A stretch of DNA of 64,000 bases from NCBI RefSeq assembly GCF_013401515.1, contig NZ_CP058530.1, positions 1 to 64,000 on the forward strand. The letters run 5' to 3'. This stretch comes from Halorarum halophilum. Its GTDB lineage: Archaea; Halobacteriota; Halobacteria; Halobacteriales; Haloferacaceae. Each line of letters opens with the position of its first letter. The first letter of the stretch is position 1. A program made the position numbers and the translations under genes. The notes beneath the pieces were generated by a model. That model worked only from the letters and a program-made list of their open reading frames with translations. It did not search any database and was not told the DNA's origin. This document shows positions 20,059 through 46,395 of this stretch, piece by piece.

Positions 20059-21411
20059 TCAGCCGCACTCGCCGGTGGGGGACTGCGAGCCGCCCCCGCC
20101 GAGTTGCCGGACGGACACGTCGACCGTCTCGATGTCCGAGTCCCTGAAGCGGTACGGCTTGCTGGTCACCGCGAGGTGCGCGTCGCGGATGGTCCCGTTA
20201 ACCCGATCCGCGTCGACGCCGCTTCGTTCCCGTCCGGGCTGGTGGACGCAGAGCCCCTCGAACACGCAGTTGTCCCGCCTGCTCGCCTGGATGGCGGCAC
20301 CCGTGGCGGCCGCGCCGGTGATGACCACGTTCTCGACGGTGAACGACTCCCCCATGCGGAGGAGGCCGCCGGTCGGCTCCTTGATGCGGATCGCGTTGAC
20401 GCCGTCGGCGTCGACGCGGATGCGGGTGTTCCGGAGCGTCGCCGACTCCAGTTCCGAGGAGAACGTCACGGCGCCGTCGCTGAACGAGACGTCGAGCAGT
20501 TCGACGAGGCAGTCCTCGACGAGGATGCCCTTGCCGCCGCGCAGGCGGATCCCGCGCATGTTCCTGAACCCGTTGCGGGCCTCGTCGCACCTGACGTGGA
20601 CGCCGCGGACGAGGCTCCCGGCGTCGGCGTTCACCCGGACGCTCGCCACCTCGTTGTTGGCGTAGTAGCCGCCGAGCACCCGCACGCGTCCCTCCGGCGG
20701 GTCGGCGTACAGGCCGTTGTCGGAGAACCCCTCGATGCGGCAGTCGACGAAGGAGATGTCCCCGCGCGTGTCGTCGCCGACCTCGCACCCCGTGATGGGC
20801 CACTTGACCACCGCGCCGTCGGGGAGGTGGAGCCGTTCGACCCGCCCGACTCCGTCCGGGCTGGTGACGTCCACCCGGACCGTGTCCGTGTCCACGTCCT
20901 GCCTACCCCGGACGGTGACGTTCCGGAGGTTCAGTTCGTGGTCGACGCGGGCGACGATCGGCCGGCCGCCGGTCCGCTTCGCGCGGAAGTCGAACTCGAG
21001 CCCGTCGACGAGCAGGCGGGAGGCCGTCCCGGGGGTGCCGAGCGTGAACAGTTCGTCGTCGAACCCCTGCGGGGGGACGATCGTCGCCCCGTCGGCCACC
21101 AGGCCGAACAGCGAGAACTCCGTGAACGACCACTGCTCCTCCATCCGATAGCGCCCGGGCGGGAGGTACAGCATCCGGTTGTTCGCCGCGGCGTCGTCGA
21201 GGACGGGACCGAGCGGCTCGGTGCCGAACGGGTCGGCGCCGTGTTCCCCCAAGTTGCGGATCTCGCCGAACCCCCACGCGTCGGCGACGGCTTCCAGGTC
21301 GGGCTGGTCGGCCGGCGTCGGCTCGTCCCAGGGGTCGAGGGAGCGCCCACCACAGCCGGCGAGCCCCGCCGTCGCCGCCGCTGCTGTCGCCAGCAGCGTT
21401 CGTCTGCGCAT
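20059..21411 (-). CDS. Exported lipoprotein with right-handed parallel beta-helix
   Basis: A 450-residue protein with a Tat-type signal (MRRRTLLATAAAA) and lipobox LAGC at about residue 20. The mature part opens with a pectate-lyase-like cap (GADPFGTEPLGPVLDDAAANNRMLYLPPGRYRM) and continues with repeated short beta turns (VRVLGGYYANNEVASVRVN, GIRLRGGKGILVEDCLVELL, ATLRNTRIRVDADGVNAIRI), the right-handed beta-helix pattern of carbohydrate-active or structural proteins. No lyase or glycosidase active site can be assigned with confidence. It is probably lipid-anchored outside the cell and interacts with the glycan made by the cluster. A TATA-like ATAACAAT box lies 27 bases before ATG 21411. Confidence 0.82.
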   Translation of the reverse strand: MRRRTLLATAAAATAGLAGCGGRSLDPWDEPTPADQPDLEAVADAWGFGEIRNLGEHGADPFGTEPLGPVLDDAAANNRMLYLPPGRYRMEEQWSFTEFSLFGLVADGATIVPPQGFDDELFTLGTPGTASRLLVDGLEFDFRAKRTGGRPIVARVDHELNLRNVTVRGRQDVDTDTVRVDVTSPDGVGRVERLHLPDGAVVKWPITGCEVGDDTRGDISFVDCRIEGFSDNGLYADPPEGRVRVLGGYYANNEVASVRVNADAGSLVRGVHVRCDEARNGFRNMRGIRLRGGKGILVEDCLVELLDVSFSDGAVTFSSELESATLRNTRIRVDADGVNAIRIKEPTGGLLRMGESFTVENVVITGAAATGAAIQASRRDNCVFEGLCVHQPGRERSGVDADRVNGTIRDAHLAVTSKPYRFRDSDIETVDVSVRQLGGGGSQSPTGECG

Positions 21412-36323: not shown

Positions 36324-37043
36324 ATGGAAGACGCCGCGGCCAGCGAATCCCTGTTCACGACTGGCGTCCTGACGACGCGAGATGGGGAGGTAACGACGAC
36401 CGAGCGCTTCGAGTCCTCGGTCGAGGACTACGTCGACGAGGTCGCCGGCCGGACTCGCGAGGAGCTGGCCGAGCTCGTCCGGGAGCGGGTCGAACGGGAG
36501 GCGGTCGTCGACCCGTTCGCGGCCCTCGGCGCCGAGGACTCCCGCACCCTCGCGGAGCTGTTCGCGCTCCACGACCACCTGACGGCCGCCGCCGACGGTG
36601 GGGAGCTGGCCGCCGCCGACGCGTTCCTCTCGTCCGGCGACTGGCTGTCGCTGCTCCCGGTGTTGCGGCTGTTCCGTCCCGTCGAGACGCCGACCGACGG
36701 CGTCCCGGAGTCGTTCGTCCCGGTCCCGGCGACGCACGTCCCCCACCTTACGCGGATCTACTCGCCGGCGGTCGTGTACGTCTGGCTCGACGACTGCTCG
36801 CCCTGCGAAACCGTCAAGGACGACCTCGAGTCGATCTTCGCGGACCCGCAGGAGGTGATGCCGTTCGCGGTGTACGGTCCCGACCACCAGGAGTTCCTCG
36901 CCGAAGAGTACCAGGTGACCGCCGGACCGGCGCTGCTGTTCGTGCTCGACGGGACCGTCGACTCGCGGATCTACGGCGCCCAGGGGAGGCGGGGAATCGA
37001 GGCGGAACTGGCGACGCTCCGCGAACTGGCCGCAGGCGACTGA
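36324..37043 (+). CDS. Thioredoxin-fold protein with helical N-terminal domain
   Basis: A 239-residue acidic cytoplasmic protein. Residues 1-125 are mostly helical and not recognised (VEDYVDEVAGRTREELAELV). The C-terminal 100 residues form a thioredoxin fold with VVYVWLDDCSPCETVKDDL, whose CxxC is C-S-P-C, and AGPALLFVLDGTVDSRIYG with the cis-Pro region. It could act as a disulfide or peroxide redox partner or simply as a thiol chaperone. Haloarchaeal homologues of this two-part type are common but lack a defined role. It precedes the ABC transporter operon by 180 bases. Confidence 0.8.
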   Translation: MEDAAASESLFTTGVLTTRDGEVTTTERFESSVEDYVDEVAGRTREELAELVRERVEREAVVDPFAALGAEDSRTLAELFALHDHLTAAADGGELAAADAFLSSGDWLSLLPVLRLFRPVETPTDGVPESFVPVPATHVPHLTRIYSPAVVYVWLDDCSPCETVKDDLESIFADPQEVMPFAVYGPDHQEFLAEEYQVTAGPALLFVLDGTVDSRIYGAQGRRGIEAELATLRELAAGD

Positions 37044-37223: not shown

Positions 37224-38129
37224 ATGAGTGTCGTGAGCAAACTGCAAGGATTCGGCGGCGGCGACCTCGGAACCATGGTCAGGCGGACCCTGCGGAACCT
37301 GCTCCGTGAGCGGATCACCAAGTTCGCGTTCGTCTGCCTGCTGTTCATCCTCCTGATCGGACTCATGGGGCCGGAGATCGCGCCATACGACTACGCCGAG
37401 CAACAGCGGACCGCGGACGGCCAGCTGAACCGGTACGCCCAGCCGTCGCTCGAGCACCCGCTGGGGACGAACGACCGCGGCGAGGACGTGCTCTCGCGGC
37501 TGCTGGTCGGGGCACGGGCGACGCTCATCACCGGGCTGCTCGCGGGGAGCCTGATGCTCGTGCTCGGCCTGTTCGTCGGCGTGACCGCCGGCTACGTCGG
37601 CGGACGGACGGAGAGCCTGCTGATGCGCTTCGTCGACTTCATCTACGGCATCCCGTTCATCCCCTTCGCCATCGTGCTCATCACGTTCTTCGGGGCGGGC
37701 TTCTACACCACCATCGCCATCATCGGGCTGGTGCTGTGGCGGTTCATCGCGCGGGTGATACGCTCGCAGGTGCTCCAGATCAAACAGCGCCCGTACATCA
37801 TGGCGGCGAAGGCCTCGGGGGCCAGCACGCCCTGGATCATCCGCAAGCACATCCTGCCGAACATCGCCAACATGGCCGCGCTGTTCTTCGCCATGGGCGT
37901 CGGGCTGGCCATCCTCGAACAGGCCGGCCTCTCGTTCATCGGCGTCACCGACCCGTTCACGCCGACCTGGGGGATCATGATCCGCAACGCCCACCAGTCG
38001 GGTCGGGTCGCCGAGGCGTGGTGGTGGTCGTTCCCGCCGGGAATCATGATCTCGCTGACGGTGCTCTCGCTGTACCTCCTCGGACGGGGGTACGAGGGCG
38101 CGGGCGGCGAGGACGAGGTGGTCGTGTAA
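37224..38129 (+). CDS. Peptide/nickel-type ABC transporter permease (DppC-like)
   Basis: A 301-residue inner-membrane permease. The N-terminal OppC-type segment (TKFAFVCLLFILLIGLMGPEIAPYDY) is followed by HPLGTNDRGEDVLSRLLVGARATL, about five further membrane segments, and the EAA loop AAKASGASTPWIIRKHILPN that contacts the ATPase. The product pairs with the DppB-like permease at 40384. The gene opens the five-gene transporter operon; it is followed by the ATPase gene after 1 base. A box CTTAATATGG near 37101-37110 suggests a leader of about 100 bases. Gene order C-D-F-x-B-A is unusual; most such operons begin with the binding protein and B. Confidence 0.9.
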   Translation: MSVVSKLQGFGGGDLGTMVRRTLRNLLRERITKFAFVCLLFILLIGLMGPEIAPYDYAEQQRTADGQLNRYAQPSLEHPLGTNDRGEDVLSRLLVGARATLITGLLAGSLMLVLGLFVGVTAGYVGGRTESLLMRFVDFIYGIPFIPFAIVLITFFGAGFYTTIAIIGLVLWRFIARVIRSQVLQIKQRPYIMAAKASGASTPWIIRKHILPNIANMAALFFAMGVGLAILEQAGLSFIGVTDPFTPTWGIMIRNAHQSGRVAEAWWWSFPPGIMISLTVLSLYLLGRGYEGAGGEDEVVV

Positions 38130-38130
38130 C

Positions 38131-39174
38131 ATGTCCGAGCCAATACTGGAGTTCGACGACGTCGACATCGAGTACAGCACCCGCGGGGACAACGCGGTCC
38201 ACGCGGTCAACGACGCATCGTTCGCCATCGAGGAGCACGACTACTTCGGGCTCGTCGGCGAGAGCGGCTGCGGCAAGAGCACCATCGCCGACGCCATCGT
38301 CGGCGGCCTCGACGAGAACGGCGAGGTCACGTCGGGCGCGATCCGGTTCAAGGGGAAGGAGATCCAGGACTACTCCGAGAAACAGTTCAACAAGGAGATC
38401 CGCTGGAAGGAGATCTCGGTCATCCCCCAGTCCTCGATGAACAGCCTCGACCCGGTGATGAAACTGAGCCAGCAGGCCGTCGAGATGGCGAAGTACCACA
38501 CCGACCTCTCGAAGGCCGAGGCGGTAGACCGTCTCCGGGACCTGTTCGACGTCGTCGGGCTCTCGGAGTCGCGCATCCACGACTACCCGCACCAGTTCTC
38601 CGGCGGGATGCAACAGCGGGCGATCATCGCGTTCTCGCTGTTCCTCCGCCCCAGCCTCATCATCGCGGACGAGCCGACGACGGCGCTGGACGTCATCATG
38701 CAGGACCAGATCCTCGACCACATCAACGAGCTGAAGGACGACTGGAACATCAGCATGCTGATGATCACCCACGACATCTCCGTCGTCTTCGAGAACTGCG
38801 ACTCGATGGCGGTGATGCACGGCGGGCAGGTCGCGGAGGCGGGCAGCACCGTGGACGTGTTCGACCGGCCGCGACACCCGTACGCCATCCTGCTCCAGAA
38901 CGCGTTCCCGGACGTCCGGTACCCCGACCGCGAACTGGCCGTCATCGAGGGTCACCCGCCACAGCTTCGGGAGAAACCGGACTTCTGCACGTTCGCGGAC
39001 CGCTGCCCGTGGTCCACCGACGAGTGTTACGACGGCGCTCCCGACCCGCAGCCGATCGAGGGCGACGAGTCCCACATGGCGTGGTGCGTCCGGGCCCACG
39101 AGATGGAGGAGCTGGCCGCCGAGCACCTCGAGAAACCGCCCGAGGCATCGAGCATCCTGGAGGGGAGCCGATGA
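38131..39174 (+). CDS. ABC transporter ATP-binding protein (DppD/OppD-like)
   Basis: A 347-residue ATPase. Walker A is GESGCGKST (about 45-53), the signature is FSGGMQQRAI and Walker B is SLIIADEPTTALD, with the switch histidine in ITHDIS. The C-terminal oligopeptide-transporter domain contains CTFADRCPWSTDEC, the cysteine-rich loop of the family. It energises uptake together with the OppF-like ATPase. The stop codon TGA overlaps the start of the next gene (ATGA, 39171-39174). Confidence 0.93.
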   Translation: MSEPILEFDDVDIEYSTRGDNAVHAVNDASFAIEEHDYFGLVGESGCGKSTIADAIVGGLDENGEVTSGAIRFKGKEIQDYSEKQFNKEIRWKEISVIPQSSMNSLDPVMKLSQQAVEMAKYHTDLSKAEAVDRLRDLFDVVGLSESRIHDYPHQFSGGMQQRAIIAFSLFLRPSLIIADEPTTALDVIMQDQILDHINELKDDWNISMLMITHDISVVFENCDSMAVMHGGQVAEAGSTVDVFDRPRHPYAILLQNAFPDVRYPDRELAVIEGHPPQLREKPDFCTFADRCPWSTDECYDGAPDPQPIEGDESHMAWCVRAHEMEELAAEHLEKPPEASSILEGSR

Positions 39175-40247
39175 GCGGCGACGCGCCGGTCCTCGAACTC
39201 CGGGGGCTGGAGAAGTACTTCGACACCTCGACGGGGCTGTTCGACACGGTCAAGAACCGCATCGCCGGCCGGGAGCCCGCGTACGTCCAGGCCGTCGACG
39301 GCGTGAACATGGAGCTCCGGGAGAACCAGGTCCAGGGCGTCATCGGCGAGAGCGGCTGCGGGAAGACCACGCTGCTGCGGACGCTCATCGGGCTGTACGA
39401 GCCCACCGGCGGGGAGCTGCTCTTCCACGGCCAGCCGACCTCGGAGTTCACCAAGGAGGAGTGGAAGGAGTTCCGCCGCCAGGTCGGGCTCGTCTTCCAG
39501 GACCCGTTCAACTCGCTGGACCCGAAGTTCAGCGTCCGACGCACGCTGGCGGAGCCGCTCGAGATCCACGGCATGGACTACGACCTCGAGCGCATCGAGG
39601 AGATGCTGGAGTCCGTGGGGCTGTCCCCGGCGGACAAGTACCTGGGGCGGTTCCCGAACCAGCTCTCCGGCGGCGAGAAACAGCGCGTCGCCATCGCGCG
39701 CGGGCTCATCACCGAGCCCGACGTCATCCTGGCCGACGAGCCGGCGTCGATGCTGGACGTCTCCACCCAGGCGGAGATCCTGAACCTCCTGAACCGGCTC
39801 ACCGACGAGTTCGGCGTCTCGATGGTGTACATCTCCCACGACCTCTCGACGGTCTCGTACATCTGCGACGAGATCAACGTCATGTACCTCGGCCGGGTCG
39901 TGGAGAAGTCGCCGACGAGGCGGCTGCTCGCGGAGCCCAAACACCCCTACACGCAGGCGCTCATCCAGTCCATCCCGATCCCGGACCCGCACTACGAGCG
40001 CGAACGGGCGACGATCGGCGGCGAACCGGGCGACCCCATCAACATGCCGAAGGGGTGCCGGTTCAAGAACCGGTGTCCGGAGCGGATGGAGGTGTGCGAC
40101 CACACGCCCTACGACGTCCCGCCGGACGGCGAGGACGACCGCACGGTGGCGTGTCACCTCTACTACGACCACCCGACCGGGGAGTCGGCGAAGCAGGAGG
40201 ACTCCGCGCAACCGGAGGAACTCGCAGAACTGGAGGAAACACGATGA
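39171..40247 (+). CDS. ABC transporter ATP-binding protein (DppF/OppF-like)
   Basis: A 358-residue ATPase. Walker A is GESGCGKTT, Walker B VILADEPASMLDVS, signature LSGGEKQRVAIARGL, and switch ISHDLS. The C-terminal domain has CRFKNRCPERMEVCDHTP. The last 20 residues are Glu/Gln-rich (GESAKQEDSAQPEELAELEE). The ATG is fixed by the 4-base overlap with the OppD-like gene. Its TGA (40245-40247) overlaps the ATG of a 47-residue ORF. With the OppD-like partner it forms the usual asymmetric ATPase pair. Confidence 0.93.
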   Translation: MSGDAPVLELRGLEKYFDTSTGLFDTVKNRIAGREPAYVQAVDGVNMELRENQVQGVIGESGCGKTTLLRTLIGLYEPTGGELLFHGQPTSEFTKEEWKEFRRQVGLVFQDPFNSLDPKFSVRRTLAEPLEIHGMDYDLERIEEMLESVGLSPADKYLGRFPNQLSGGEKQRVAIARGLITEPDVILADEPASMLDVSTQAEILNLLNRLTDEFGVSMVYISHDLSTVSYICDEINVMYLGRVVEKSPTRRLLAEPKHPYTQALIQSIPIPDPHYERERATIGGEPGDPINMPKGCRFKNRCPERMEVCDHTPYDVPPDGEDDRTVACHLYYDHPTGESAKQEDSAQPEELAELEETR

Positions 40248-40387
40248 ACTCGACACCGAACGACGATCGACCGACCGACCACGGGCGGGCCTCGGCCGTA
40301 CGCGAACCCGATGCGAGCGACCCGCGACCACCCGCAGACGACCGCCCGCAGTCACCGACTCCGGCGACGGGAGGTGAGCGCGCGTGA
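40244..40387 (+). CDS. 47-residue hydrophilic ORF coupled between ATPase and permease genes
   Basis: A 47-residue, Asp/Pro/Arg-rich, probably disordered peptide (MNSTPNDDRPTDHGRASAVR at the start, ending TPATGGERA). Its ATG overlaps the OppF-like stop (ATGA at 40244-40247) and its TGA overlaps the GTG of the permease (GTGA at 40384-40387), so ribosomes can pass from gene to gene. It has no Cys, no membrane segment and no known domain. It may be a real small subunit, or a spacer ORF that keeps translation running into the permease gene. Both couplings are exact, which argues against chance. Confidence 0.5.
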   Translation: MNSTPNDDRPTDHGRASAVREPDASDPRPPADDRPQSPTPATGGERA

Positions 40388-41385
40388 GCCGCCTCCGCTA
40401 CTTCGCCCGGCGGACGGCGATCACGGCGGTGCTCATCTTCATGGTGGCGTCGGCGCTGTTCGTGTTCTTCCGGCTGATGCCGGGGGACTACTCGGCGCTC
40501 CTCATCCAGCAGGGGATGACACCCGATCAGGCCGCCAAGCTCGAAGCGAAGTGGGGGCTGAACGCGCCGCTTCACGAGCAGTACTTCAAGTACGTGGTCA
40601 ACCTGCTCACCGCGGACGCCGGTCAGTCGTTCCGACACGGGTCGCCCGTCTGGGAGCTCGTCCGGCCCCGTATCATCAACTCGGCCATCCTGGTGTTCCC
40701 GGCGATCACGGCGACGTACATCATCGGGAGCGTCATCGGCACGATCATCGGCCGGTACCGCGGCGGCTTCCTCGAGAAGTCGAGCATCATCACCGTCTCG
40801 ATGTTCCACTCGATCCCCGACTTCTTCCTGGGCATCCTGCTGATCGCCGCGTTCTCCTCGACGCTCGGCATCTTCCCCACGTCGGGGATGCTCTCGACGC
40901 AGACCTCGATCATGATCCAGGACCAGCCGTTCTGGCACCGGTTCCTCCTGAAGGAGTTCTGGATGCACTACGCGCTCCCGTTCGCGACCATCACGCTGTA
41001 CTTCATGCAGTACCCGGCGCTCATCATGCGCAACAGCGTCGTGGAGGTGAGCGACCAGGAGTTCCTCCACTACCACCGCCTGAAGGGGCTCCCGCGCGGG
41101 AAGCTGCTCCGGAAGCTCATGCGGCACGCGTCCCTGCCGGTCATAACGCTGTACCCGATCTCGCTGGCGACGTCCATCAGCGGGCTCGTCCTCATCGAGA
41201 TCGTGTTCAACTGGCCCGGCATCGGGCGGCTCCTCGTGGACTCCGTGCTGGCCCGGGACTTCCCGGTCATCCAGTTCGTCTTCCTCGTCGCGGCCGTCTG
41301 GGTCATCCTGGGGAACTTCGTCGTGGACCTGCTCTACGGCGTCATCGACCCCCGGGTGTCAGTCGCGGGCGACGGGAACGAGTAG
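40384..41385 (+). CDS. Peptide/nickel-type ABC transporter permease (DppB-like)
   Basis: A 333-residue permease with an N-terminal membrane helix (YFARRTAITAVLIFMVASALFVFFRL), the LMPGDYSALL motif typical of DppB, five more membrane segments and the loop YHRLKGLPRGKLLRKLMRHASLPV (EAA loop). LVLIEIVFNWPGIGRLLVDSVLARDFPVIQ is a highly typical DppB block. GTG 40384 is set by the overlap with the small ORF. It forms the translocation pore with the DppC-like protein. Confidence 0.92.
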   Translation: MSRLRYFARRTAITAVLIFMVASALFVFFRLMPGDYSALLIQQGMTPDQAAKLEAKWGLNAPLHEQYFKYVVNLLTADAGQSFRHGSPVWELVRPRIINSAILVFPAITATYIIGSVIGTIIGRYRGGFLEKSSIITVSMFHSIPDFFLGILLIAAFSSTLGIFPTSGMLSTQTSIMIQDQPFWHRFLLKEFWMHYALPFATITLYFMQYPALIMRNSVVEVSDQEFLHYHRLKGLPRGKLLRKLMRHASLPVITLYPISLATSISGLVLIEIVFNWPGIGRLLVDSVLARDFPVIQFVFLVAAVWVILGNFVVDLLYGVIDPRVSVAGDGNE

Positions 41386-41548: not shown

Positions 41549-43372
41549 ATGCCATCAAGTGGCAGGCAGAGCAGCGAACAGCGTGTCGACCGGAGACGAG
41601 TGTTACAGACGATCGGCGTCGCGTCCGCCGCCGCTCTGGCGGGCTGCGGCGGGAACGGCGGGAACGGCGGCAACGGTGGGAACGGAGGCAACGGCGGGAA
41701 CGGCGGTGGGGGCGGAGGGGCCGGGGACCTTGGCGAGCGGGTTCCCACGCTCACGTTCCAGTACTGGTCCGACCAGGGACCGCCGACGGTCCTGTTCGAG
41801 GAGACGATCTCGAACATCCAGGCCCGAACCGGCGATATGGGGTTCCAGATCGAGACGATGCCGATGACGACCGGCGAGGGGGTGGCGGCGGTCGGGAACG
41901 ACAACCGGGACTTCCACATCGCGGTGAACAGCCACGGCCCCTCGCCCGGCCGACTCGACCCGGACGAGCTGCTGACAAACTACAGCCTCGACTACGCCGG
42001 GGCCAACGGCAGGTACAACCCGGGGAACTACGCCAACTGCGAGTTCACCGAGCACGCCCGCGCGCAGTCGGTCGCGGCACCGGGTGAGCGCGAGGAGGCC
42101 GTCAACAACGCGATGTCGGTCTTTTCGGAGGACCTCGGCTTCATCCCGACGATCGAGCGCCCGTTCACGGCGGCGGTCAACACCGACGTGCTCACCGAAC
42201 TCGAGACCGGACCGGCGGGGCTGAGCGACATCCACTGGTCCTCGCTGCTCGAGTCGGGGCTGGAGGCGCGGGACGGACAGGGGCCGATCGTCGCGAACCT
42301 CCCGTCCGAGATGCTGACGAGCAGCTTCTACCCCACCGTCAGCGACGGCGACGCGATGGTCCTGTACACGAATCTGACCACGTCGCCGCTCCTGATGTAC
42401 GACTCCAACTACGAGCTGATCCCGGTCCTCGCCGAGAGCTGGGAGACGAACGACGAGGGGACGCGGACGACGTTCCAGCTCCGGGACGCCACGTTCCACA
42501 ACGGTGACCCGGTGACGCCGGAGGACGTCAAGTGGACCTACGAGTTCCTGCGCGACCAGTACCACAACGGCGACTACCAGTGGACGAACCTCCCGGAGGA
42601 CCTGACCGTCGAGGTCGTCGACGACAGCACGGTCGCGTTCAACACCGAGGACCCGGCGCCACAACTCCTCACCGCGCGGCTCTCCATCTACGGCGTCCTG
42701 CCGCGGGAGCCGTACGTCCAGGCGGGCATCGAGGACAACCCGACGAACTTCGAGGACCCGATGATCGGGGCCGGTCCGTACCGGATGGCGTCCTACAACA
42801 ACCAGCAGAACATGTCGCTGGAGCCCCACGACGGACACCCGGTGTGGAGCCCGCAGACGCCGATCATCACGCAAATCTACGAGAGCGTCGATGGCGTGGT
42901 GCGGGCGTTCGAGAACGGGGAACTCAACCTCGCGGTGGCGCTCCACCCCGAGGCCGGCCAGCAGCTCCAGAGCCGGATGGGCGACAGCGTCCAGATCGTG
43001 ACGGGCATGGCCCACCTCCCGTACGGGATCATGCCCCAGCAGTCGTTCGCACCGGGGATGTTCCCGGAGTTCCGCCAGGCGCTCTCGCACATGGTCGACC
43101 GACAGAACCTGAACGAGACGTACGCGTTCGGGGAGTCCGAGGTCGTCATCCACGGGACGTTCAACTCCCAGGCGCACCCTTGGTACAACCAGGACGTCCT
43201 CACCCAGATCGCCGGCGAGACCGCCGACGTCGACCAGGCGAAGCAGGTGCTCGAGGACGCCGGGTGGGGCTGGGACAACAACGGCAACCTGCACTACCCC
43301 CAGGACGCCAGCATGGAGGCCTGGCCGCAGGGCGAGACGCCCAGCCCCGAGGACTTCCCCTGCCTCGAGTGA
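41549..43372 (+). CDS. Family 5 ABC substrate-binding lipoprotein, apparently circularly permuted
   Basis: A 607-residue Tat lipoprotein (VDRRRVLQT, lipobox LAGC with C33, then a Gly/Asn linker to residue 58). In the usual family the chain starts with the region TSPLLMYDSNYELIPVLAESWETND and FHNGDPVTPEDV and ends with a segment that follows the AGW-nGnlhYP helix. Here that final segment (residues about 65-220: LTFQYWSDQG, DFHIAVNSHGPSPGRLDPDELL, NPGNYANCEF, REEAVNNAMSVFSEDLGFIPTIE) comes first, and the canonical N-terminal region begins only near residue 245. The protein ends GWGWDNNGNLHYPQD. A T-rich box near 41520 indicates its own promoter. It should deliver a peptide or other solute to the adjacent permeases. 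Confidence 0.88.
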   Translation: MPSSGRQSSEQRVDRRRVLQTIGVASAAALAGCGGNGGNGGNGGNGGNGGNGGGGGGAGDLGERVPTLTFQYWSDQGPPTVLFEETISNIQARTGDMGFQIETMPMTTGEGVAAVGNDNRDFHIAVNSHGPSPGRLDPDELLTNYSLDYAGANGRYNPGNYANCEFTEHARAQSVAAPGEREEAVNNAMSVFSEDLGFIPTIERPFTAAVNTDVLTELETGPAGLSDIHWSSLLESGLEARDGQGPIVANLPSEMLTSSFYPTVSDGDAMVLYTNLTTSPLLMYDSNYELIPVLAESWETNDEGTRTTFQLRDATFHNGDPVTPEDVKWTYEFLRDQYHNGDYQWTNLPEDLTVEVVDDSTVAFNTEDPAPQLLTARLSIYGVLPREPYVQAGIEDNPTNFEDPMIGAGPYRMASYNNQQNMSLEPHDGHPVWSPQTPIITQIYESVDGVVRAFENGELNLAVALHPEAGQQLQSRMGDSVQIVTGMAHLPYGIMPQQSFAPGMFPEFRQALSHMVDRQNLNETYAFGESEVVIHGTFNSQAHPWYNQDVLTQIAGETADVDQAKQVLEDAGWGWDNNGNLHYPQDASMEAWPQGETPSPEDFPCLE

Positions 43373-43609: not shown

Positions 43610-44872
43610 ATGGCTGAAGAACAGCAGCGGCGACGGGTGCTGGAGGACGTCGTCGTCGTCGACGTCTCGACGTTCGTCACCGGCGGCTTCGCGACGATGA
43701 TGCTCGCCAACCAGGGGGCGGACGTGATCAAGGTCGAACGGCCGGACGTCGGGGACGATAGCCGCCACTCCGGCCCCCCGTTCGTCGACGTGGCCGACTA
43801 CGACGGCCCCGGTCGCGCCGCCGCCGAAGGGGGGGAGTCGCCCTACTTCTGGACGATCAACTACGGCAAGCGGAGCGTCGAACTGGACCTGAAGACCGAC
43901 GAGGGCCGCGAGGCGCTGTTCGACCTCGTCTCGGGGGCGGACGTGTTCGTCGAGAACTTCCGGCCCGGCACGGCCGAGCGGCTCGGGGTCGACTACGAAC
44001 GCGTCCGCGGGGAGAACGAGGACGTGATCTACTGTTCGATCTCGGCGTTCGGCGAGACCGGCCCCTGGAGTGACCGTCCCGGCTACGACCAGCTCGTCCA
44101 GGGGCTGAGCGGCATGATGAGCGTGACCGGCTACCCGGACCGATCGCCGGTGAAGGTCGGGCTCCCACAGACCGACCTCATCACGGCGATGTGGGCCGCG
44201 TTCGGCGTCGTCAACGCGCTCTACCGCCGGGAGCGGACGGGGGAGGGAGACCGCGTCGAACTCGCCATGCTCGACGCCAGCCTCCCGTGGCTGACCAAAC
44301 AGGCGGCCCGGGTGTTCGCCGGCGAGACGCCGACGCGCATGGGGACCGGTGACCCCGTCATCGCGCCGTACCGGACGTACGCGACGGCCGACGGCCACCT
44401 CAACGTGGCCTGCGGCAACCAGCGGCTCTGGGAGGGGCTCTGTGACGCGCTCGACCGGCCAGATCTCGCGGGCGATGACCGCTTCGGGACGAACGGCGAC
44501 CGCGTCGAACACCGCGAGGACCTCGACGCGGAACTGGCCGCCGAGTTCGAGGACCGAACCACCGAGGAGTGGATGGCGTTCCTCGCGGAGGAGCGTGGTC
44601 TCCCCGTCGGTCCGGTTCTCGACGTCGAGGGGGCACTGTCGAACGAGCAGGTGTCGGCCCGTGGCGTCGTCGGATCGATCGAGCACTCGGCGCTCGGGGA
44701 CGTCCCCCTCATCGAACACCCGCTCAACTACGACGGCGCGGACGCCGGGTTCGAGGACGGCCCCCCGCTGCTCGGCGAACACACCGAGGAGATCCTCCGT
44801 GAACTCGGCTACGACGACGAACGCATCGCCCGCCTGCGGAAGGCGGGGACGATTCCGGACGACGAGGGGTAG
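43610..44872 (+). CDS. CaiB/BaiF family (class III) CoA-transferase
   Basis: A 420-residue CoA-transferase of the class III type. It has the N-terminal VVDVSTFVTGGFATMMLANQGADVIKVE, NYGKRSVELDLKTDEGR, VFVENFRPGTAERLG and the catalytic Asp D189 in GLPQTDLITAM. Dimeric interlocked enzymes of this family move CoA between carboxylic acids such as formyl-, carnitine- or aromatic-succinyl-type esters. Here it would activate an acid for the acyl-CoA dehydrogenase and hydratase set. The gene follows the binding protein by 237 bases in the same direction, without a clear promoter. Confidence 0.92.
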   Translation: MAEEQQRRRVLEDVVVVDVSTFVTGGFATMMLANQGADVIKVERPDVGDDSRHSGPPFVDVADYDGPGRAAAEGGESPYFWTINYGKRSVELDLKTDEGREALFDLVSGADVFVENFRPGTAERLGVDYERVRGENEDVIYCSISAFGETGPWSDRPGYDQLVQGLSGMMSVTGYPDRSPVKVGLPQTDLITAMWAAFGVVNALYRRERTGEGDRVELAMLDASLPWLTKQAARVFAGETPTRMGTGDPVIAPYRTYATADGHLNVACGNQRLWEGLCDALDRPDLAGDDRFGTNGDRVEHREDLDAELAAEFEDRTTEEWMAFLAEERGLPVGPVLDVEGALSNEQVSARGVVGSIEHSALGDVPLIEHPLNYDGADAGFEDGPPLLGEHTEEILRELGYDDERIARLRKAGTIPDDEG

Positions 44873-45228
44873 CGACCTCCCCGGCGAACACAAACTCTCG
44901 GTGATGAGTCGAAACGGACCAGAAGTCGACTGCGGCTCCGAACGTCGATTCTACCCGATTACCGAGTCGGAGAGGGTGTCCTCTCCTGAAACCTCGGATG
45001 GACGCTCTGGACGGGAGCCGAAGAACCACGAGCGACTCGTGGGAAAACGCGACGGCATATTCTATATCGCGAAATGTGATTTACGAGTCCCCGTGGCTCC
45101 TGGATATCGGGGCTCGGAGGCTCAAGCGCCGGTATTTCGGCGTTTCGAGGCACTGGGCAGCTCACTCGGTTGTAATCGAATACAACCAAGTGGTTATATG
45201 GGGGGCCACGCCGTCGGGTCGTCGTACG
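44873..45228. other. Intergenic region, 356 bases, upstream of the recombinase
   Basis: It becomes AT-rich after 45040 (CATATTCTATATCGCG at about 45056-45071) and contains two adjacent palindromes and a TATA box next to the recombinase start. No gene or tRNA is seen. Confidence 0.6.
45168..45195. promoter_or_regulatory. Two overlapping palindromes before the recombinase gene
   Basis: GGTTGTA-ATCGAA-TACAACC (45168-45187) has perfect 7-base arms. AACCA-AG-TGGTT (45184-45195) has perfect 5-base arms and shares bases with it. A TATA-like TTATATG follows at 45194-45200, 29 bases before ATG 45229. Regulator binding here would block the promoter. Confidence 0.6.
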
Positions 45229-46395
45229 ATGGCATCGACGGATGCAGCCGGGTCGACAGGGGGGGAAACGGCGGTTCGGCGGCTGATCGACGACTTCCTC
45301 GCGTCGAAGGAGGAGCGGGGGTCGGGCGCGTACGTCGCCAGCGCGTCCTCCGTGCTCGACCGGTTCGCCGAGTGGCTGGAGGCGCGCGACCGGACGCTCG
45401 CGGACCTGGACGACGAGCGGCGCGGCCCGCAGCTCATGCGCAGGTACGCGAAGCATCTTCGGCGCAGGGCGAACGCCCCCGACGGGATCTCGCCGACGAC
45501 CGCGAACACATACTACGCGTACGTCTCGGGCTGTCTGGCCTACGGCGTCCGGGACATGGTGCTCTCGGTCAACCCGGCGCGGACCGAGGCGGCACGGGAG
45601 GAGCTTCCCGCCGACGAGGGGAAGCGGTCGGACCAGCAGTTCTGGACCCGCGACCAGCGCGAGTCGCTGGTCGGGCACGCGCGGGCTCGCGCCGGCGACG
45701 CGATCGAGGCCGACCCCTTCGGGGCCTACCCGGAGGTGCGGGACCACGCTCTCGTCGCCGTCCTGGCGTTCGCGGGCGTGCGCGGTGCCGAGGTGCTCCG
45801 CCACCGGAAGGACGACCGCCGGGGGCGGCAGGGGCTCCGGTGGTCGCGAGTCGACCTCGATGCCGGTACCGCGGAGGTGCTCGGCAAGTCGAAGACCGAG
45901 GGCAAGCGGTGGCAGCACGCCTCGCTGCCGGGGCCGGCGCGCGACGCGCTCGAGACGCTCCGGCGCGTCCAGCGTCCGCCCACCCCGGAGTGGCCGGTGT
46001 TCGAGTCGAGTCACGCGCCGTCGCTGTGGGCTCGTGCGCGGGAAGAACTCCCCGAGGGAGCGGTCGAAGGCGCGGTCGCGGAACGGGGGAATATCCGCGA
46101 TGTGCTGCGGGCCGAGGGGATCGCGCCGCCGGCGCTCACCACCGACGGCGGCCGGTCGGTCCTGCGTCGGCTCACCGACGGGGCCGGGATCGATCTCCCC
46201 GAGGACGCCGACTACCTCCAGCCGCACGGCGCGCGACGGGGGATCGGCGAGGAACTGTACCGGGTTGACCGGGGGCTCGCCCAGGACCTCCTCCGCCACG
46301 AGGAACTGACGACGACGCGGGACCACTACCAGCACATCGACGCGGCCGAGCGGACGCGCGAGATCGACGCGGAACTCGAGCGACTCGGGGAGTAG
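45229..46395 (+). CDS. Tyrosine recombinase / phage-integrase family protein
   Basis: A 388-residue site-specific recombinase. Residues 14-120 form the SAM-like core-binding domain; the catalytic domain carries R185 (GVRGAEVLR), K220 (LGKSK), H333 and R336 (LQPHGARRGIG), H357 (LLRHEELTTTRDH) and nucleophile Y367 (DHYQHI). All residues of the family active site are present, so the enzyme should be functional. ATG 45229 is 29 bases after the TATA box. It may belong to a decayed or small integrative element; I find no tRNA target, no second mobile gene and no flanking direct repeat. A chromosomal XerC-like role is the alternative. Confidence 0.88.
   Translation: MASTDAAGSTGGETAVRRLIDDFLASKEERGSGAYVASASSVLDRFAEWLEARDRTLADLDDERRGPQLMRRYAKHLRRRANAPDGISPTTANTYYAYVSGCLAYGVRDMVLSVNPARTEAAREELPADEGKRSDQQFWTRDQRESLVGHARARAGDAIEADPFGAYPEVRDHALVAVLAFAGVRGAEVLRHRKDDRRGRQGLRWSRVDLDAGTAEVLGKSKTEGKRWQHASLPGPARDALETLRRVQRPPTPEWPVFESSHAPSLWARAREELPEGAVEGAVAERGNIRDVLRAEGIAPPALTTDGGRSVLRRLTDGAGIDLPEDADYLQPHGARRGIGEELYRVDRGLAQDLLRHEELTTTRDHYQHIDAAERTREIDAELERLGE

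Follow-up and report, generated by a model that had tools for sequence, protein, structure and literature searches.

Cluster C substrate-binding proteins (SBPs) of the SBP_bac_5 family, which include DppA of E. coli (1DPP), AppA of B. subtilis (1XOC) and Lmo0135 of Listeria (5ISU), are lipid-anchored in Gram-positives and archaea, and in DppA-type systems the secreted binding protein is encoded in an operon together with two permeases and two ATPases. In structures of oligopeptide-binding proteins, the N- and C-termini are reported to lie close to each other, beside strands of the sheet in domain I (PMC10924461). In DppA, R383 and D436 form salt bridges with the termini of the bound dipeptide and also contact E41/R42 of DppB (PMC12136057). 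Among the open-licence papers that we found, a single natural permuted ABC receptor is described, the circularly permuted lipoprotein Tp0684/MglB-2 of Treponema pallidum (Type Ic / Cluster Bc), which belongs to class I (PMC4990184).

Here, we analysed a window of 64,000 nucleotides (the whole stretch of DNA under study) from Halorarum halophilum that encodes an SBP family 5 (SBP5) protein in a Dpp-like operon. This protein is homologous to the cluster C proteins across the whole fold, but it differs from DppA-type receptors in that its two blocks are reversed, its anchor precedes lobe 2, and R383 and D436 are not conserved. Like Tp0684/MglB-2, it is membrane-tethered, permuted and found across a lineage; unlike it, it is an SBP5, whereas Tp0684/MglB-2 has a class I (cluster B) glucose-binding fold in which the strands of one lobe are permuted. 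All solved-structure matches listed for the window protein are family 5 / cluster C, so that it is not TpMglB-2-like.

The ORF at 41549-43372 on the forward strand encodes 607 amino acids, and the family 5 motifs quoted for it in a preliminary description are present. That description had assigned residues ~65-220 to the C-terminal end of the family and placed them ahead of the canonical N-terminal part. Pfam alone yields an incomplete match, with PF00496 covering only residues 289-581 (profile positions 1-286 of 368; 162.3 bits against a cut-off of 32.4) and no Pfam match in residues 64-251, a pattern that would also suit a truncated SBP carrying an unrelated extra N-terminal domain. A second profile was built from 32 canonical SBP5 taken from the window genome, other archaea and bacterial plasmids as well as E. 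coli DppA and OppA. This profile matched the ORF twice, at residues 70-224 (profile positions 399-549; 26.2 bits) and at residues 255-592 (profile positions 67-400; 163.6 bits). The two matches are complementary and reversed in order, the outcome for which the preliminary description had proposed to look with the SBP_bac_5 profile. When the ORF was rotated in silico, they merged into one match (69-548; 190.9 bits), while 500 control rotations in which the N block had been shuffled gave a mean of 164.8 bits (sd 0.4) and a maximum of 168.0 bits.

Pairwise profile alignment with hhalign gave the same arrangement: residues ~63-233 aligned to residues 375-519 of the DppA precursor (probability 98.7, E 3.9e-16) and residues ~240-580 to residues 29-369 (probability 100, E 1.5e-49). 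Neither block had another credible position on DppA. A wider profile of permuted proteins likewise put the N block at DppA 384-526 with 50 bits. The assignment of residues ~65-220 to the C-terminal end thus holds, as does their position before the N-terminal part. An unrelated extra domain, which these alignments of the N block refute at the level of sequence, is extremely improbable. It was one of two outcomes that the preliminary description had set against its own reading; the other, an in-order full-length match, was absent with both PF00496 and the canonical SBP5 profile. At the level of sequence, it is established that the ORF encodes a circularly permuted, DppA-like lipoprotein of SBP family 5 (cluster C).

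The precursor begins with a predicted Tat-type signal peptide (41549..41647, forward strand, as are all parts of the ORF) that contains RRR at residues 15-17 and a lipobox, LAGC, the commonest lipobox form in haloarchaea (PMC2945643). Cys33 of this lipobox is the predicted lipidation site, and R15, R16 and G32 are invariant in alignment A2. A Gly/Asn-rich, presumably flexible tether (residues 34-60; 41648..41728) leads to the N block (residues 66-223; 41744..42217), which HMM, hhalign and a residue map identify as the homologue of the C-terminal part of canonical SBP5 and which corresponds in that map to residues 344-496 of mature DppA, i.e. to lobe 2 followed by the return to lobe 1. The gap between the blocks is a linker (residues 224-254; 42218..42310) that connects the former C-terminus with the former N-terminus. 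It is followed by the main block (residues 255-585; 42311..43303), identified through PF00496, HMM and hhalign as homologous to the canonical N-terminal part, in which residues 255-570 correspond to mature DppA 9-337, i.e. to lobe 1 and the start of lobe 2. The last segment, defined from alignment A1 and a table of Cys positions, is a C-terminal tail (residues 586-607, plus the stop; 43304..43372) with the conserved pattern WPxGExPxxxxFPCL and Cys605 at its end. The preliminary description was right about the reversed block order but had let the chain stop at GWGWDNNGNLHYP; 23 more conserved residues follow, ending in ...EAWPQGETPSPEDFPCLE. Three canonical SBP5 lipoproteins of the same genome (L001, L002 and L003) resemble the window protein in their Tat/lipobox signal, Gly-rich tether and family, but they have the canonical order, and the permuted profile matches them in reverse arrangement.

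These assignments suggest that the old N- and C-termini, neighbours on lobe 1, were joined by a linker of about 30 residues and that the chain was opened in the loop that leads into lobe 2, ahead of its first core strand, at about residues 338-343 of mature DppA. The permuted chain would then fold into the usual two-lobed Venus-flytrap. Because AlphaFold2 gave pLDDT values of only 37 and 41 for the full-length protein and the mature domain (11 sequences), we infer this fold from homology. The same lack of a confident single-chain model would be compatible with a permuted sequence whose lobes are completed by domain swapping between two molecules. We regard such swapping as very unlikely, since the linker spans termini that reportedly lie near each other in canonical proteins of known structure and since the residue map contains each part of DppA once, with no duplication and no long gap. 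Two Cys residues, Cys164 of the N block (~42038-42040) and Cys605 (~43361-43363), occur together in 16 orthologs and are both missing from 5, with no ortholog having one alone. This co-occurrence across 21 orthologs fits an intrachain staple, although it is phylogenetically weak, and hints at a Cys164-Cys605 disulphide that would fasten the new C-terminus; because the five Cys-less orthologs represent few lineages, we take the pairing as a hint only. For the single permuted chain, export by the Tat pathway would be followed by lipid anchoring, with lobe 2 rather than lobe 1 attached to the anchor. As the lipid anchor now comes before lobe 2, the receptor should be suspended from the membrane by the other lobe than usual.

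Colinear full-length orthologs with 32-76% identity were found in ten haloarchaeal genomes, among them Halorussus, Halegenticoccus, Halorubrum, Halalkalicoccus and one MAG, and are annotated publicly just as 'ABC transporter substrate-binding protein'. In eight of the nine ortholog genomes examined, the gene order is thioredoxin-like protein, DppC, DppD, DppF, DppB and permuted SBP. In the window, these genes are all located on the forward strand and encode an upstream thioredoxin-like protein (36324..37043; PF00085, conserved synteny), a DppC-type permease (37224..38129; 81-89% identical to, and in the equivalent position as, its counterparts in the orthologous operons), a DppD-type ATPase (38131..39174) and a DppF-type ATPase (39171..40247), both assigned by operon comparison, and a DppB-type permease (40384..41385; PF00528 and operon comparison). 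The thioredoxin-like protein matches PF00085 in its C-terminal half only and has 48-57% identity in eight named genomes. Because the ten orthologs are colinear and the operon is common to eight of the nine examined, the permutation is not an artefact. An assembly error, a frameshift or a decaying gene fusion in the window genome would have to account for these independently sequenced haloarchaea and also for two further permuted paralogs within the window genome, and its probability is practically negligible.

Immediately downstream of the permuted SBP lies a gene for a CaiB-like CoA-transferase of family III (43610-44872, forward strand). We rejected it as an operon partner, as it adjoins the SBP in one ortholog genome only and there on the opposite strand. 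Further downstream, an ORF at 44998-46395 (forward strand) resembles a tyrosine recombinase by eye, and the adjoining region contains many ORFs that overlap one another on the two strands.

Like the receptors of peptide/nickel-type importers, the permuted SBP shares its operon with genes for two permeases and two ATPases, a context that speaks for a receptor function in import of the Dpp/Opp type. Taken together, the ORF very probably encodes a lipoprotein that binds the substrate for an ABC importer of this type and has a circularly permuted chain. At both sites aligned to R383 and D436 of DppA, the window SBP has Gly, and the window DppB has QQ at the scoop-loop sites E41/R42 of E. coli DppB. 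Because the equivalents of both residue pairs are absent, the window SBP is unlikely to bind a dipeptide in the manner of DppA, and judging from these residues the substrate is probably of another type. None of the NCBIfam equivalogs passes for the window SBP (the DppA model NF043070 scores 18 bits against a cut-off of 1005). The receptor would thus capture a non-dipeptide solute and hand it to DppBC, with DppDF supplying the power.

The window genome contains 14 SBP_bac_5 matches, three of which end at profile position ~286, and all three are permuted. Altogether, we collected 79 permuted proteins, leaving out a pectate-lyase-like lipoprotein (window 20062-21411, reverse strand) whose resemblance lies in the signal peptide alone. 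The N block comes first in all 79, and rotation raises the score by more than 5 bits in 77 (median gain 55.8), whereas it lowers the score in each of 32 canonical SBP5. The spread of the group was estimated with a junction profile (A4) that matches permuted proteins in one piece across the join and canonical ones in two reversed pieces of at most ~95 bits. We preferred this profile to an earlier tally of 186/194, which was set aside as a measure of prevalence because canonical SBPs also match in it. At least one junction-spanning match (best E <1e-35) was present in 75 of 97 sampled haloarchaeal genomes. Outside the class but within the same phylum, such matches were confined to four genomes of one family (f14). 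One f14 genome (G293) we take to be Archaeoglobus fulgidus DSM 4304, and the label 'Archaeoglobus-type' is used here on that assumption.

Permuted members are also carried by alphaproteobacterial plasmids of Maritalea, Nitratireductor, Ketogulonicigenium, Roseomonas and Neorhizobium, where they adjoin permease and ATPase genes wherever these are annotated; IMG/VR held one weak partial relative. Among solved chains, the best stretch in each of the best 60 of 117 matches to the permuted profile begins no earlier than profile position 224, which corresponds to the canonical order. A permuted SBP5 was described neither in the open-licence papers that we found nor among the solved-structure matches listed, and the permuted SBP5 are a large, old and widespread group that is apparently undescribed. 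One Archaeoglobus-type member (L082:533-2272, reverse strand) has a Sec-like signal and no lipobox, and its C-terminus resembles a PGF-CTERM anchor (PGFGVIAVIAGVMAATYLLRRRR). Because of this C-terminal anchor and the missing lipobox, the L082 protein may hang from its C-terminus.

The two other permuted paralogs of the window genome (L007 and L008, both outside the window) belong to a clade without nearby Dpp genes. In 31 of the 32 loci assigned to the L007 clade, a gene for a PAP2-family membrane phosphatase lies directly downstream; the remaining locus, L078, probably falls outside the clade. In the window genome, the SBP-PAP2 modules are located at L153:3458-6164 (reverse strand) and L154:3518-6816 (forward strand). 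The conservation of this two-gene module suggests a non-transport role, and because the L007 clade is without adjoining ABC genes, some permuted SBP5 may serve as something other than receptors for transport.

We combined permuted sequences, after rotation, with a limited sample of canonical ones in a maximum-likelihood tree, which placed 40 haloarchaeal and alphaproteobacterial permuted proteins on one side of a branch (100/98), and the Archaeoglobus-type proteins and a haloarchaeal pair, L114 and L115, among the canonical ones. Almost all permuted proteins are opened within one and the same loop, which would fit a single permutation event with some canonical SBP5 as revertants. AU tests nevertheless rejected a single clade of all permuted proteins (p 0.0004) as well as the main haloarchaeal clade forced together with the Archaeoglobus-type proteins (p 0.00027), even if these p values are somewhat optimistic because the groups were partly picked after the tree was seen. 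A single clade of the main haloarchaeal proteins and L114/L115 was not rejected (p 0.138), in keeping with a single origin for these two groups. Reversion, however, would require the reverse rearrangement, and we judge one origin for all permuted SBP5 to be rather unlikely. Because the single permuted clade is rejected, at least two origins of the permutation are, within the limited canonical sampling, the better-supported reading and probably the correct one. L114 (661-2304, reverse strand) and L115 (635-2293, forward strand) end ~25 profile positions earlier than the other permuted proteins and may have a different breakpoint. They possibly represent a third permutation; a certain third origin was dropped, as their joining the main clade was not rejected.

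A potential route to such proteins is found in an archaeal draft genome, where L148 (1355-4390, forward strand) encodes a lipoprotein of 1011 amino acids in which one canonical SBP5 domain follows another head-to-tail within a single ORF, immediately upstream of a DppB-type permease. L148 would be the kind of intermediate needed for permutation by duplication and loss of the ends, which makes it suggestive rather than proof. Following this one fused example, the permuted gene may have arisen by tandem duplication and in-frame fusion, after which the N-terminal part of the first copy and the C-terminal part of the second would have been lost. We tentatively propose, as a possibility to be weighed rather than a favoured conclusion, that permutation of cluster C is recurrent: the haloarchaeal/alphaproteobacterial lineage, the Archaeoglobus-type archaea and possibly L114/L115 would each have acquired it separately, at nearly the same loop and via fused tandem genes, and one haloarchaeal clade, present twice in the window genome, would have left ABC transport, its lipoproteins now working together with a membrane phosphatase of the PAP2 family.

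Profile tools read permuted SBPs as truncated proteins and overlook a third of the fold, and therefore annotation and ligand prediction can err. Permuted SBP5 are natural templates for permuted biosensors. The shift of the anchor to the other lobe bears on how the receptor docks to its permease, and a large permuted cluster C family with apparently repeated origins, together with a fused tandem gene that resembles the intermediate, makes it possible to test directly, by comparison, by which route permutations come about and at what cost.
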